Below, one piece after another: positions 2,380 through 46,960 of a stretch of DNA of 50,453 bases; position 1 is the first letter of the stretch, and every line of letters starts with the position of its first letter. The stretch is from contig WFTL01000043.1 in the NCBI GenBank assembly GCA_015485495.1, positions 1 through 50,453 on the forward strand. Reading direction: 5' to 3'. The position numbers and the translations under genes were made by a program. The notes beneath the pieces are model-generated. The model was not told where the DNA came from and made no database searches. It saw only the letters and a program-made list of their open reading frames with translations. This DNA comes from Planctomycetaceae bacterium. GTDB taxonomy: Bacteria; Planctomycetota; Planctomycetia; Planctomycetales; Planctomycetaceae.

Positions 2380-4188
2380 ATGCCGATCCGGCAGGACGAA
2401 CTGAACTTCCCGATTCTTCCTGATTTTGCTAAACCAACAGGCTGTGGAATGTGCCCAGGCTGCGCGATGGTGGCGTGCCTGGATGGAGGCGGGGAGATCG
2501 ACGGCACGATGGGTTTCGTGACGGGTTTCGTATTTCTGGTCTGCCTGACGCTGCTCGTCATGATCTTTGGCGAGAAATTCAGCGTGTTTGCCGTCCTGCG
2601 CGGTGACTGGGTTCGCCGGCTGCCGGATCTGCTGTTCGACGGGTTCGATGTTCTGTCGGACGGAATCTCCCAGGTTCGGGGCTTCGTTCTCCGTCATCTC
2701 TGGTGGGTTCTGGCTGTCGGTTCGGGAGCCGTCGGCGTTTTTCTGACGGGCTGGATGATGTTCGGAGCGGTGGTGGAACAGGCCGCAGCGGAACTGGCTG
2801 TCGTCAGCCGGCCGCTTCATGCCGGAGGCGTGCTGGACACGGGTCTTGTGATCGATTCGCAGGCTGCGGATCGACCGTTCGTTTCCCGGGCGAAGCGGGA
2901 AACGGTCTTCCACCGGATCGTGCAGGAGGGACCGTCGGGCCGGTTCATCGACATTCCGCGTCTGCCGGTGGTGACGGATCCGCTTCCTGATCGCAGCCGG
3001 GAGGATCCGGGTAATGGCCTTCCATGGGAACGGGACAGACCGCCGCTGCGGAACAGGGATTGGGACGGCGAGCGTTTTCTTTCCGATTCCGATGCGCTTC
3101 CGGACCGGCCTTCCGGGCGGAATCCGTTCGATGCCGGACCGCGTCTGCAGGCCGATCTGGATGTCGTCACCATCGCCATCGGCCGTCCGGTGGACTCTCT
3201 GGCGATGGAAGACCTCATCGATCGGGCTCTGGGGTCTTTGAGTCTGTCCGGAACACGGTGGCAGCGTCGGGAGTCCATTCCCATTCCGGACAGGGACGAA
3301 TGGGATACGGATCCGGACGAATCGCTGGCTGTGCCGAATGCCGCTTCCTGGGAGATTCGGGAAATGGAGGATCGGGTTCGGATTCTTCCCGGCAGAGACG
3401 TTTCTCAGGCCGATCTGCGGATCGACAAGCGTGGACACCGCGATGCCCGTCCTGGTCAGTTCACGGTCGAAATCGACATCACCAACACGTCCGACGAACC
3501 GGTCAGCGGGCTTGTCGTTCGCGAGTATCTGGATCCTGAAGTGATTCCCGTTTTCGTCAGCGACGGAGGCGTTTTTCGGGACGGGGTGGTGACCTGGGTC
3601 ATTCCCGATCTGGATGCTCATGCGGTGCAGTCACTGCGGGTGCGCCTGCATCCTTCCGTCGACGATGCCCGGGCGGCCGGTGAACTGGTCTGGGACAGTC
3701 GAACGGAAGTTTCTGCGGTGACGGCCGTCCGGACATCGACTCGGGTTCGTTCGCAGCGGGGAACCCGGCTGCCAATTGCGGGGACGCCGGATGTCCGCAT
3801 GACGCTGCGGCCGCCGGATCGGACGGTGAAGGTGCGTGAGAACCTGGAGATTCCGATCGAACTGCACAATCGGGGAACCGGACCGTCCGGCCGGATGACA
3901 GTCCGTGTGCGTCTCCCGCACGAACTGGATCACATCACGCTGGAACCTTCCGATCGCAATCGGACTCTGGTGATGAACATCCGGCCGATCGCTGCCGGAG
4001 AATCCCGAACGGTCGTACTGAGAACGCGGGCCACAGACGCCGGGATTCACGAAGCGGATGTAGAACTGCTCGATCGGGGACGCATTCTGGACCGTGATCT
4101 TCTGATGGTGCGGGCCCGGGCCGTGGATTCGGAATCTCACGGAGGCGTGCGCAGCCGACCGCTCCCGGCGGGTTCCGATCTTCCCTGA
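2380..4188 (+). CDS. Membrane protein with two DUF11-like domains
   Basis: The product has 602 residues and unknown function. It begins with a cysteine cluster (CGMCPGC, residues 22-28), followed by two hydrophobic segments at about 44-64 and 107-129. A long, arginine- and aspartate-rich extracytoplasmic part follows. Residues about 348-460 and 478-590 form two Ig-like beta domains resembling DUF11/CARDB, with patterns such as ITNTSDEPVSGL and ELHNRGTGPSGR; such domains are common in envelope proteins. ATG 2380 is chosen over an in-frame GTG at 2350 because AGGAG (2365-2369) lies ten bases before it. The neighbours do not suggest a pathway. The N-terminal cysteines could bind a metal or be incidental. 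Membrane anchoring is well supported; function is unknown. Confidence 0.75.
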   Translation: MPIRQDELNFPILPDFAKPTGCGMCPGCAMVACLDGGGEIDGTMGFVTGFVFLVCLTLLVMIFGEKFSVFAVLRGDWVRRLPDLLFDGFDVLSDGISQVRGFVLRHLWWVLAVGSGAVGVFLTGWMMFGAVVEQAAAELAVVSRPLHAGGVLDTGLVIDSQAADRPFVSRAKRETVFHRIVQEGPSGRFIDIPRLPVVTDPLPDRSREDPGNGLPWERDRPPLRNRDWDGERFLSDSDALPDRPSGRNPFDAGPRLQADLDVVTIAIGRPVDSLAMEDLIDRALGSLSLSGTRWQRRESIPIPDRDEWDTDPDESLAVPNAASWEIREMEDRVRILPGRDVSQADLRIDKRGHRDARPGQFTVEIDITNTSDEPVSGLVVREYLDPEVIPVFVSDGGVFRDGVVTWVIPDLDAHAVQSLRVRLHPSVDDARAAGELVWDSRTEVSAVTAVRTSTRVRSQRGTRLPIAGTPDVRMTLRPPDRTVKVRENLEIPIELHNRGTGPSGRMTVRVRLPHELDHITLEPSDRNRTLVMNIRPIAAGESRTVVLRTRATDAGIHEADVELLDRGRILDRDLLMVRARAVDSESHGGVRSRPLPAGSDLP

Positions 4189-44057: not shown

Positions 44058-45029
44058 ATGTCGGGTTCGGTTCCTGCCGCCGTCATTCTGGCTGCCGGAA
44101 AAAGCACACGGATGAAATCGAACACGCCCAAGGTTCTGCACACGCTGTGCGGCCGGCCGATGATCGAATACGTGATGGATGCGGCGCGGGCTGCCGGAGT
44201 CGAAAAGCTGATCGTCGTGGTGGGGCATCAGGCGCGAACCGTTCAGGATGCTCTGTCGAATCATTCCGATGTGGTTTTCGCCGAACAGACCGAACAGCTC
44301 GGAACAGGCCATGCGGTCATGATGTGCGAATCGGAGCTGCAGGATCATTCCGGACCGGTTCTCATTCTGGCAGGCGACACTCCTCTGCTGGAAAGCCGGT
44401 CTCTGCGGCGGCTGCTGGATGAACAGCACCGCACGTCAGCCGCCTGTGTGATCGGTTCGGCCGACACGGCGGACAATGAAGGACTCGGCCGAATCGTGCG
44501 GGATGACAGCGGGCAGTTCCACTGCATCCGTGAACACAAAGACGCGTCCGAAGACGAACGGCAGATTACGGAAATCAACACCGGGTGCTATGCCTTTGAC
44601 ACACCGCTGCTTCTGGAATCGCTGCGGGAACTGAAGCCCGACAACGCGCAGTCGGAATACTATCTCACGGACTGTCCGCGGATTCTGATGGAAGCCGGCC
44701 ATCGCGTGACGGCTCTGTGCTGCCTGACGGTGCGGGAGGCTGTCGGAGTCAACAATCGTGTTCAGCTGGCGGAAGTGCGGCGTCACATACAGCAGAACAT
44801 TCTGAACGGCCTGATGCTCAGCGGAGTGACCATCGAAGATCCGCTTCAGACGACCATCGATCAGGATGTTTCCGTCGGACAGGATACGGTCATTCGTCCG
44901 GGGACGGTCATCGATCGCGGCGCCCGAATCGGCAGCGGCTGCCGCATCGGACCCAACGTGCATCTGACGGCCGCCTGCTGTATCCCCGACGGAACCACCG
45001 TGGCATCCTCTTCCGACCTGGATGACTAA
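44058..45029 (+). CDS. UDP-N-acetylglucosamine pyrophosphorylase (short GlmU-like)
   Basis: This 323-residue nucleotidyltransferase should convert GlcNAc-1-phosphate and UTP to UDP-GlcNAc, a precursor of peptidoglycan and lipid A. The N-terminal domain has the GlmU signature LAAGKSTRMKSNTPKVLHTL, EQTEQLGTGHAV and LAGDTPLL. Bifunctional GlmU has about 450 residues. Here the left-handed beta-helix stops after only a few hexapeptide turns (DVSVGQDTVIRPGTVIDRGA), and the acetyltransferase part is absent. The acetyl transfer must then be done by another protein. AGGAG (44046-44050) lies seven bases before ATG 44058. The stop overlaps that of the convergent methyltransferase. Confidence 0.88.
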   Translation: MSGSVPAAVILAAGKSTRMKSNTPKVLHTLCGRPMIEYVMDAARAAGVEKLIVVVGHQARTVQDALSNHSDVVFAEQTEQLGTGHAVMMCESELQDHSGPVLILAGDTPLLESRSLRRLLDEQHRTSAACVIGSADTADNEGLGRIVRDDSGQFHCIREHKDASEDERQITEINTGCYAFDTPLLLESLRELKPDNAQSEYYLTDCPRILMEAGHRVTALCCLTVREAVGVNNRVQLAEVRRHIQQNILNGLMLSGVTIEDPLQTTIDQDVSVGQDTVIRPGTVIDRGARIGSGCRIGPNVHLTAACCIPDGTTVASSSDLDD

Positions 45030-46960
45030 CGGCCGCGGGCGGCGTGGCCGGTGTGCAGCTCAGCCAGATTGTACTGCGGGACGGTCGGCCGGCTGCTGAT
45101 GACGGCGCTGACCCATGGCAGCAGGTCGGTCTGTCCTTCGGGAACGGCGAAGTACCGGTAGCTCAGCTGTCTTCGGCGCCCTTCCCAGCGTTCGTCGGGT
45201 TTCCGGGTGACGTCGACCAGACGCGATGCCAGACAGGCGGCAGATCCCACGTAGATGCATTCGTCGTCACGATACACCAGGTAGATGCCGGGCCGATCGG
45301 GCAGGTCCCGCGGGCGGCAGCGGGAGAACCGGTCTCCCAGCCAGAACCGGCGGGGTACATTCAGGTCTGTTCCGCGGGAACGCGCTTTTTTTAGAGTTTT
45401 GCGCAGACGCAGGGCTCCCCAGCGGTAGTCCAGACTGCGAAATCCGGGAGCGAACTGCCGGGCCGTGGCATCGAACTGACGCGCCAGATCGGGATCGGCG
45501 AGAATGTCTTCGATGGTGCGGTCCGGATGGCCGTTTCTCAGGCGGACCCAGGCGATTTCCGATGCCGACAGATACGGCTCGCATTCTTCAGCCGTGACGG
45601 AATAACGCCGGGTACCCTTCAGAGCACCACCCACTTTTCGCAGTTTCAGCAGGCGCAGGCAGGCGTCCCGGGGTGACAGCGGCAGTCCCAGCCGGGCACA
45701 TTCCTCGCAGAAGGCCGCCTGCAGATCGGGGTCGGCCAGAACCCGATCGACTGCCCAGCCTTCGTGGATTTTCTGCCAGGCGGTCACGATCGTTTCGTTC
45801 AGAATCTCCTTCAGCCGTCTGGCCACAGGGCGGCGGCGATCGCGAGCGGTCTTCTTTCGGCGGGACGGCTGTGTTTCCGGAACGACTGCATCTTTGTCGG
45901 CCGCGGCGGACTGCAAAGATGTTTCTGCTTCCGGCGGGCTGCCGATGGCCGTTTTTCCGGCCGCGGGACCTGCTGCCGGGACGGCGCCGGCATCGGGATC
46001 GTTCGGCCGGTTCTCTGCTGCTGCGGCCGGCTGATCGGAGGGGCGGTGCGGCTGACGAGGCGTCTTTTTCGCCGCCATCGATGGTTCGGGGGCGCCGTTG
46101 AGCGGATCGCCGGGGCGGACCGCGTCCAGCCGCTGCTGACCGGCTTCCGTGTATTCCGGCGACAGTTCGAACCCGATCGTTCGGCGGTGAAGTTTGCGGG
46201 CTGTGATCAGCGTGGATGCACTGCCGGCGAACGGATCCAGAACGATGTCGTTTTCATGGGAACAGCAGCGGATGATGCGCCCCAGAAGCTGTTCGGGCAT
46301 CTGGCAGCCGTGAAATCCGGCTCGTTCACGAAAGGTGCCGGCCACACGAGCAAAGTACCAGGTGTCTTCGTGTTCCTGGAACTGTTCTTCCAGGTCCTGG
46401 GGCCTCAGGGTGAATGTCTGGTCCACTGCGGGCGGAATGATCCAGGTGTCGTCCGGCAGGCGTCCGCGGCTGTTGGCGCGGCGGTCGTTGTAGACGAGCT
46501 GACGGGCGGAAGGCACGCGGTTTTCGGGATCATCGGCGCGGAAGGTGAATCGTTTCGGGTCCTTCACGAAATACAGAAGATGCGTGTGGGACCGTGTGAA
46601 CTTGTTTTTGCAGTTCACTCCGAAGGTGTAGTACCAGATGACCCAGCTGCGCATGTGAAACCCGGCTTCTCGGGCCATGATTTTCAGTTCGGCCGCGTAT
46701 TCGTCTCCGATGGCCAGCCAGAATGTGCCGTCCTCCGTCAGGACCCGATGCACGGCCTGCATCCAGTCACGGGACCACTTCAGGTACTCATCGTCATCGA
46801 CGCGGTCATCGTACACATCGTAGCTGTAGCCGATGTTGAAGGGCGGATCGGCAAATGCCAGATGCACGCTGTGTTTCGGCAGAGCATTCATTCCATCGAT
46901 GCAGTCGCCGCAGTGAATCCGTTCCAGCAGTTCAGTGAGAGGTTCGGTGGTGGGCGTCAT
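45026..46960 (-). CDS. DNA methyltransferase with duplicated module and GIY-YIG-like C-terminus
   Basis: The 644-residue protein has three parts. Residues 1-285 are a beta-class DNA amino-methyltransferase: catalytic DPPF (38-41) comes before the SAM site DPFAGSASTLITAR (242-255), which favours N6-adenine methylation. Residues 286-375 are a low-complexity A/P/K linker. Residues 380-530 contain two copies of a helical module sharing (V/I)LADPDL (407-412 and 486-491) and a downstream L-x-L-R-K. The end is GIY-YIG-like: GIY (558-560), YVG (570-572), R580 and terminal PQYN. The glutamate expected before PQYN in active nucleases is not seen, so cleavage is doubtful. It starts on the stop of the GNAT gene (TGATG), so it belongs to that operon. 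The methylated site is unknown. Confidence 0.88.
   Translation of the reverse strand: MTPTTEPLTELLERIHCGDCIDGMNALPKHSVHLAFADPPFNIGYSYDVYDDRVDDDEYLKWSRDWMQAVHRVLTEDGTFWLAIGDEYAAELKIMAREAGFHMRSWVIWYYTFGVNCKNKFTRSHTHLLYFVKDPKRFTFRADDPENRVPSARQLVYNDRRANSRGRLPDDTWIIPPAVDQTFTLRPQDLEEQFQEHEDTWYFARVAGTFRERAGFHGCQMPEQLLGRIIRCCSHENDIVLDPFAGSASTLITARKLHRRTIGFELSPEYTEAGQQRLDAVRPGDPLNGAPEPSMAAKKTPRQPHRPSDQPAAAAENRPNDPDAGAVPAAGPAAGKTAIGSPPEAETSLQSAAADKDAVVPETQPSRRKKTARDRRRPVARRLKEILNETIVTAWQKIHEGWAVDRVLADPDLQAAFCEECARLGLPLSPRDACLRLLKLRKVGGALKGTRRYSVTAEECEPYLSASEIAWVRLRNGHPDRTIEDILADPDLARQFDATARQFAPGFRSLDYRWGALRLRKTLKKARSRGTDLNVPRRFWLGDRFSRCRPRDLPDRPGIYLVYRDDECIYVGSAACLASRLVDVTRKPDERWEGRRRQLSYRYFAVPEGQTDLLPWVSAVISSRPTVPQYNLAELHTGHAARGR

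Follow-up and report, generated by a model that had tools for sequence, protein, structure and literature searches.

The window studied here is a stretch of 50,453 nucleotides from a Planctomycetaceae bacterium (GenBank assembly GCA_015485495.1, contig WFTL01000043.1, positions 1 to 50,453 of the forward strand). One of its genes, P0001, is an open frame of 644 amino acids at positions 45026..46960, with its ATG at 46960 and its stop at 45026, on the minus strand, which the initial annotation of this DNA had not given. It encodes a beta-class DNA methyltransferase (MTase) that continues, past a linker, into a tail made of two helical modules and a GIY-YIG domain in which the metal-binding glutamate has been replaced. 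This anatomy and the loss of the glutamate are nearly certain. All features described below lie on the minus strand, and residue numbers are those of P0001.

The MTase domain covers residues 14-287 (46100..46921) and was identified by Pfam, Foldseek, VIA and invariant motifs. Pfam N6_N4_Mtase, the sole Pfam match of the protein, spans residues 32-274 with an E-value of 1.4e-49. In structural searches with the P0001 model, the top Foldseek match was CcrM (6pbd, E 2.1e-16) and VIA gave Z-scores of 25.4 for MboIIA (1g60) and 25.3 for CcrM. Motif IV (DPPF, residues 38-41) stands ahead of motif I (DPFAGSAS, residues 242-249), which is the order of the beta class, and both agree with its patterns DPP[FY] and DPFxGS. 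D38, P39, P40, D242, P243, F244 and G246 are present in all 119 relatives compared, the exceptions within these motifs being F41Y in four and S247T in three. An active MTase is predicted; DPPF together with a CcrM-like fold presumably favours N6-methyladenine as the product, with N4-methylcytosine also possible.

The stretch between the two motifs is presumably where beta-class enzymes read DNA, and on this layout residues 141-218 (46307..46540) would form the target-recognition region that sets the sequence to be methylated. It is also the most conserved part of the domain: mean identity is 0.747 among 91 relatives with a tail, 0.740 among 28 without one and 0.731 between the two groups, compared with 0.65 to 0.69 for the remaining MTase stretches, insertions relative to P0001 being uncounted in these figures and residues 169-217 being modelled at a predicted local distance difference test (pLDDT) score below 50. 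Because this region is as conserved in tailless relatives as in tailed ones, the target sequence is probably not determined by the tail, and a single target motif common to the family would be the simplest reading.

Past the MTase lies a low-complexity linker (residues 288-370, 45851..46099), modelled as disordered with pLDDT below 50 over residues 296-366. Two helical modules follow, at residues 371-443 (45632..45850, with VLADPDL at 407) and 457-530 (45371..45592, with ILADPDL at 486), so that the two motifs are 79 residues apart; both modules were delimited from the helices of the model and from alignment with hhalign. Within P0001 alone the duplication is suggestive and not decisive, since the local alignment score of 53 between the modules, set against a shuffle mean of 23.9 (standard deviation 4.6), is exceeded by the maximum of 55 found in 1000 shuffles. 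Profile-profile comparison of module 1 with module 2 gave E 1.4e-6 for the MTase-fused family (57 rows) and 5.5e-8 for homologues encoded without an MTase (11 rows). The MTase motifs, the linker and the repeated (V/I)LADPDL module had all been named in the initial annotation and are borne out here.

The GIY-YIG domain and its active-site columns

The last domain (residues 545-635, 45056..45328) carries GIY at 558-560, YVG at 570-572 and R580. It has no Pfam match, and its own search returned weak matches to Cho (E 0.018) and UvrC (0.16 and 0.29). Foldseek and VIA searches with the full-length P0001 model list MTases only, so the fold of the tail rests on profile comparison and on the model of a standalone homologue, in which both modules and the GIY-YIG domain are encoded by their own gene, about 255 to 270 codons long. 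Pfam GIY-YIG was matched by all 11 standalone homologues scanned (best E 2.4e-8), and their profile finds UvrC in the PDB (E 9e-4) with the catalytic Glu aligned. The standalone model (pLDDT 88, predicted template modelling score 0.57) superposes on I-TevI with Z 10.4 and a root-mean-square deviation of 1.8 over 82 aligned residues, and on UvrC with Z 9.5 and 2.6 over 88; these two share the catalytic-domain fold of the standalone homologue and differ in their homing and repair contexts and in their other partner domains. The fused-tail profile in turn aligns with the standalone profile at 99.1% and E 9.7e-19, which rules out a chance resemblance to GIY-YIG, and residues 545-635 of the P0001 model show the same strand (E) and helix (H) order, E-E-E-H-H-E-H, as the standalone model. 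Profiles and models thus recover the beta-beta-beta-alpha-alpha-beta-alpha core with its GIY and YIG-like strands, as had been proposed for the part after residue 545.

In the column of the catalytic Glu, P0001 has V617 (codon 45110..45112), by alignment columns and profile alignment alike. None of 80 distinct fused tails has Glu there; the column holds 59 Gln, 7 Lys, 6 Arg, 2 Ala, 2 Cys, 2 Tyr, 1 His and 1 Val, the last being P0001. Both Tyr, the Arg and the Asn are retained in 58 of the 80, and P0001 keeps them as Y560, Y570, R580 and N631. The His four positions after the Arg (R+4 His) is catalytic in I-TevI and Eco29kI. In P0001 it is replaced by V584 (codon 45209..45211), and it is found in 16 of 80 fused rows versus 19 of 20 other rows, the latter including L111, a P0001 relative with its MTase deleted and not a standalone nuclease, and two standalone genes that are counted twice (L007/L043 and L017/L070). 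Once duplicate sightings of a gene and two rows truncated at contig ends are set aside, all 11 standalone copies that are operon-linked to an MTase have Tyr/Tyr/Arg/His/Glu/Asn intact. The suspected absence of the glutamate from P0001 is confirmed, and homologues that keep it, for which a check had been suggested, do exist as a separate gene but not as an MTase fusion (0/80).

R.Eco29kI, a type II GIY-YIG restriction enzyme, has the Tyr/Tyr/Arg/His/Glu/Asn set that the standalone homologues match, and its E142A mutant was abolished in cleavage and retained robust site binding, according to the accessible part of the report (PMC1952068). PDB titles name an inactive Eco29kI variant, E142Q, solved for DNA binding. 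Given the replaced Glu column and this behaviour of E142A and E142Q, the fused tails resemble nucleases that have been locked in an inactive form. In VIA, R.Eco29kI (3mx4) matches the standalone model at Z 7.3 and aligns over its GIY-YIG part alone (about 98 to 101 of 208 to 210 residues); it has no two-module N-terminal part and, unlike the fused tails of this family, has the Glu.

Distribution, linked nuclease and inheritance

Among 420 related loci in genome_contigs, the 80 best comprise 78 titled as planctomycetes and two titled simply 'bacterium'. The MTase frame is present in 80/80 of these and the fused tail in 74/80; the single-chain order that was unfamiliar to the initial annotation is therefore real, but far from singular. 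In a genus, family and class sample that included the P0001 genome itself, 53 of 59 genomes had a strong MTase match (E <= 4.5e-73), a conservation across a broad clade such as is seen for orphan MTases of the CcrM and Dam kind, and at least 16 of the 59 had a fused tail among the matches listed. With the standalone nuclease as query, tails of any kind were found in 101 of 397 class genomes (E <= 1e-8). A phylum-wide profile search returned 7 of 294 genomes with at most 8 candidates scored per genome, and this count was not used. The tailed MTase is widely shared by planctomycetes.

Of the distinct fused loci, 90 had enough flank to show whether a standalone nuclease gene is adjacent (three more were too short), part of this set having been fetched with the nuclease as query. 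In 14 of these 90 the nuclease gene overlaps or abuts the MTase gene, at a distance of -21 to +7 bases from its end. Across the 397 genomes, six full-length nuclease matches scored above 290 bits and all stand beside a fused MTase. For 13 pairs of fused tail and neighbouring standalone nuclease, a Mantel comparison gave r 0.74 in the modules, a value reached by 0 of 5000 permutations, and r 0.55 in the GIY-YIG part, reached by 1 of 5000, and such correlated distances indicate that the two genes have long been inherited together. One standalone nuclease as query had no match in the phage and plasmid record collections. As a separate observation, the standalone nucleases (L034:7809-8579 and relatives) weakly match PADLOC UzuA in 9 of 11 cases (4.9e-7 at best) and PDC-S14 in up to 11 of 11 (1.1e-4 at best), the matches spanning the GIY-YIG part only in the member shown.

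A tree of 121 tails covered 94 fused and 15 operon-linked ones, 8 whose N-terminus is hydrophobic and 4 with a HicB-like head; identical rows and rows with low profile coverage were left out and L111 was labelled A by hand. The fused tails form one side of a branch with 100/100 support that is present in 100% of 200 bootstrap trees. By eye, the tail is reduced to about one degenerate module in some close MTase relatives (L002/L110, L092, L095 and L106).

The ratio of non-synonymous to synonymous substitution rates (dN/dS) is 0.01 to 0.31 in the dead GIY part (17 of 20 relative pairs with a computable dS, some with dS above 2), 0.02 to 0.23 in the modules (13 of 20 pairs) and 0.02 to 0.08 in the MTase (15 of 19). 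Wherever it can be measured, purifying selection acts on the fused tails of relatives, and pure decay of the tail was rejected on these values.

Origin and role of the tail

Orphan MTases are widely thought to descend from restriction-modification (R-M) pairs, a step that is rarely seen. We favour, at a probability of about 0.6, the reading that P0001 is a CcrM-like orphan MTase from an ancient R-M pair which keeps a nuclease-dead tail able to bind DNA or a partner. The tail would be a former restriction-type nuclease, the helical module pair being followed by a GIY-YIG domain with another residue in place of the metal-binding Glu. As a live-looking version of this tail stands in the next gene in part of the family, the MTase and this nuclease resemble the M and R components of an old, co-inherited pair, and R-M ancestry is likely. 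The MTase itself probably works as an orphan and marks a single sequence shared throughout the family. The tail may have been retained as a module that no longer cuts and binds either DNA, with residence or processivity raised, or the partner nuclease. DNA binding by the tail is suggested by its fold and by analogy with the Eco29kI mutants; the long-kept natural change from Glu to Gln is of the same kind as the laboratory change that traps Eco29kI on DNA, which points to a working pseudonuclease. The conserved recognition region predicts one methylation motif across the Planctomycetia, a class whose methylation is little studied in the open-licence literature searched. A live-looking nuclease gene, its dead fused copy, one-module remnants and tailless MTases coexist in this one bacterial class, so the route to an orphan MTase could be ordered on a tree and tested.

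Several observations weigh against this reading. On the MTase tree (119 rows, a quick method with no bootstrap), tail presence changes at least 13 times by parsimony, three of the changes being forced by starred branches; with a single origin of the fused tails this means repeated loss, and an MTase that gains or loses its tail so often evidently works without it. In a genome of the same genus (L111, G002:C173:67500-73500, 2888-3961) the P0001 locus is conserved, with identities of 64% for the glycosyltransferase, 63% for cinA and 71% for GNAT, and the MTase has been deleted in place while the tail stays an open frame at 61% identity. A pure MTase-helper role does not predict this unless the deletion is recent, and dS between this tail and that of P0001 is saturated. 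The fused GIY domains diverge most, with a mean identity of 0.27 versus 0.40 and 0.47 for the modules. Against solved folds, module 1 reaches a best Z of 5.8 (Nur), other helix-turn-helix (HTH) proteins scoring about 5, a range that the tool itself calls common and that is too weak for naming a fold. Loci fetched with P0001 only have a standalone neighbour in 12 of 74 cases, compared with the 14 of 90 that were partly fetched with the nuclease. A fused tail and its cognate neighbour resemble each other no more than non-cognate pairs do (0.378 vs 0.382 in the modules and 0.216 vs 0.223 in the GIY-YIG part, 13 pairs), so that reading of the same site by both tails is unsupported. No partner nuclease, and no second copy of P0001 or of its tail, was found in its own assembly at E <= 0.001, a negative that applies to a 180-contig draft and leaves other nuclease families unsearched.

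The best-surviving alternative, which we consider unlikely, gives the dead tail mainly a partner-binding role: it would form a mixed dimer with the standalone nuclease and hold it near the MTase or inhibit it, as a built-in control of restriction. The two genes overlap translationally and are inherited together, and fused tail and nuclease have their fold in common, all of which is consistent with such a dimer; Eco29kI binding is described in the accessible part of PMC1952068 as cooperative between two subunits (n about 2). However, 76 of 90 loci keep the tail without an adjacent nuclease, and since all six full-length nuclease relatives in the 397 genomes adjoin an MTase, most tailed MTases seem to be partnerless; as noted above, cognate tails also resemble each other no more closely than others do.

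Somewhat less likely again is sequence targeting, the role given to the tail in the initial annotation, in which it directs the MTase to certain loci or decides which motif the enzyme recognises. The weak HTH-like matches found for module 1 agree with this, as does a third subfamily, described below, in which a DNA MTase of a different class neighbours the modules and their dead GIY-YIG domain at 6/6 loci. On the other hand, the presumed recognition region of the MTase is conserved equally in tailed and tailless relatives, and the modules, at mean identities of 0.40 and 0.47, are unlike hypervariable recognition domains. Of the proposal of a built-in targeting module in place of a full R-M enzyme, the second half stands, and the targeting is unproven.

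A tail with no function today, left over from a lost nuclease and now decaying, is improbable. Its repeated loss, the one-module truncated tails in four rows and the divergence of the GIY part, the fastest of all, would all be expected of a relic, but dN/dS is well below 1 in every measurable pair, open frames have been kept over deep divergence and the Tyr, Tyr, Arg and Asn set persists in 58/80. Least probable is a single-chain R-M enzyme with an altered active site: although an artificial fusion of the Eco29kI R and M proteins is active as one chain (in the accessible part of PMC3039593) and R.Hpy188I has an unusual GIY-YIG active site according to the title of its publication, the active nuclease that marks single-chain type IIC/IIG enzymes is lacking in P0001 with both Glu and R+4 His lost, the Glu is gone from 80/80 fused tails with a variable substitute (Q, K, R, A, C, Y, V or H), and an active single-chain restriction enzyme was rejected, in agreement with the earlier view that P0001 is no full R-M enzyme.

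Related chains and known systems

The preferred reading of P0001, an orphan MTase with a nuclease-dead tail, can be set beside several described systems. CcrM, the beta-class orphan m6A MTase of Alphaproteobacteria, is the closest fold in Foldseek, and the P0001 family resembles it in its class-wide conservation and in having no linked nuclease at most loci; CcrM differs in being a 350-aa chain without helical modules of the P0001 type or a GIY-YIG tail. In Lactobacillales, a COG4123 MTase and an Slx1-like GIY-YIG domain form one chain and elsewhere neighbouring genes, the MTase being of the NPPY type and not beta-class, and the accessible part of that report describes no helical modules or loss of Glu (PMC1564403). 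DnmA (YeeA) of Bacillus subtilis is an orphan MTase derived from a restriction relic, whose neighbour YeeC has a T5orf172 domain; it belongs to another MTase family, and the part of the source available contains no GIY-YIG tail fusion (PMC9973331). GIY-YIG was not found in the accessible part of PMC3482391. Single chains of MTase and GIY-YIG and orphan MTases from restriction relics are thus known; for a beta-class MTase combined with a pair of helical modules and a nuclease-dead GIY-YIG domain, no description was found in the open-licence literature (REBASE, preprints and subscription papers being outside the scope).

The third subfamily consists of six loci in which a HicB-like head precedes two modules and a GIY-YIG domain (L162:1574-2701, L114, L159/L198, L141/L199, L143/L200 and L195 (G374:C12)). 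A D12-class DNA adenine MTase, a class checked by Pfam at one locus, lies within about 0.7 kb of the HicB-headed gene in all six, on the same strand in two and divergent in four. No Glu is present in the aligned column of L114, nor by eye in the others. From this association we tentatively consider a broader reading, possible though not the one that we would bet on, in which evolution has used the two-module and GIY-YIG chain, both live and dead, as a general-purpose partner of DNA MTases. In P0001 the dead form would be joined to an orphan MTase found across the class, in the next gene the chain would be live and co-inherited, and behind a HicB-like head it would be dead again, beside Dam-class MTases and at least once near phage head genes. 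In each of these settings the chain would act together with an MTase. The dead copies might then act as DNA clamps or nuclease antagonists, with inactivation (mostly Glu to Gln) as the working state and not decay.

One HicB-headed locus is on an IMG/VR contig, and L195 lies beside phage portal and head-morphogenesis genes. IMG/VR held one related contig, and with that protein as query a second contig that holds part of it only. A small open reading frame beside the HicB gene gave tblastn matches in three of the six loci (L162, L200 and L195) and in a HicB-only locus, L196, and by eye a small frame is similarly placed in the remaining three.

In a further relative (L105:1496-4393, 966 aa), the MTase is in frame with PAS, histidine kinase, HATPase and response-regulator domains according to Pfam; the junction has a lysine run, so a frameshift or assembly error is possible. 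Eight standalone two-module and GIY-YIG chains (L112, L113, L115, L116, L138, L140, L142 and L161) have, by eye, a hydrophobic N-terminus that resembles a signal peptide. They form one clade (100/100) with the Glu intact in 4 of 4 aligned members and, by eye, in the others, and are possibly exported nucleases.

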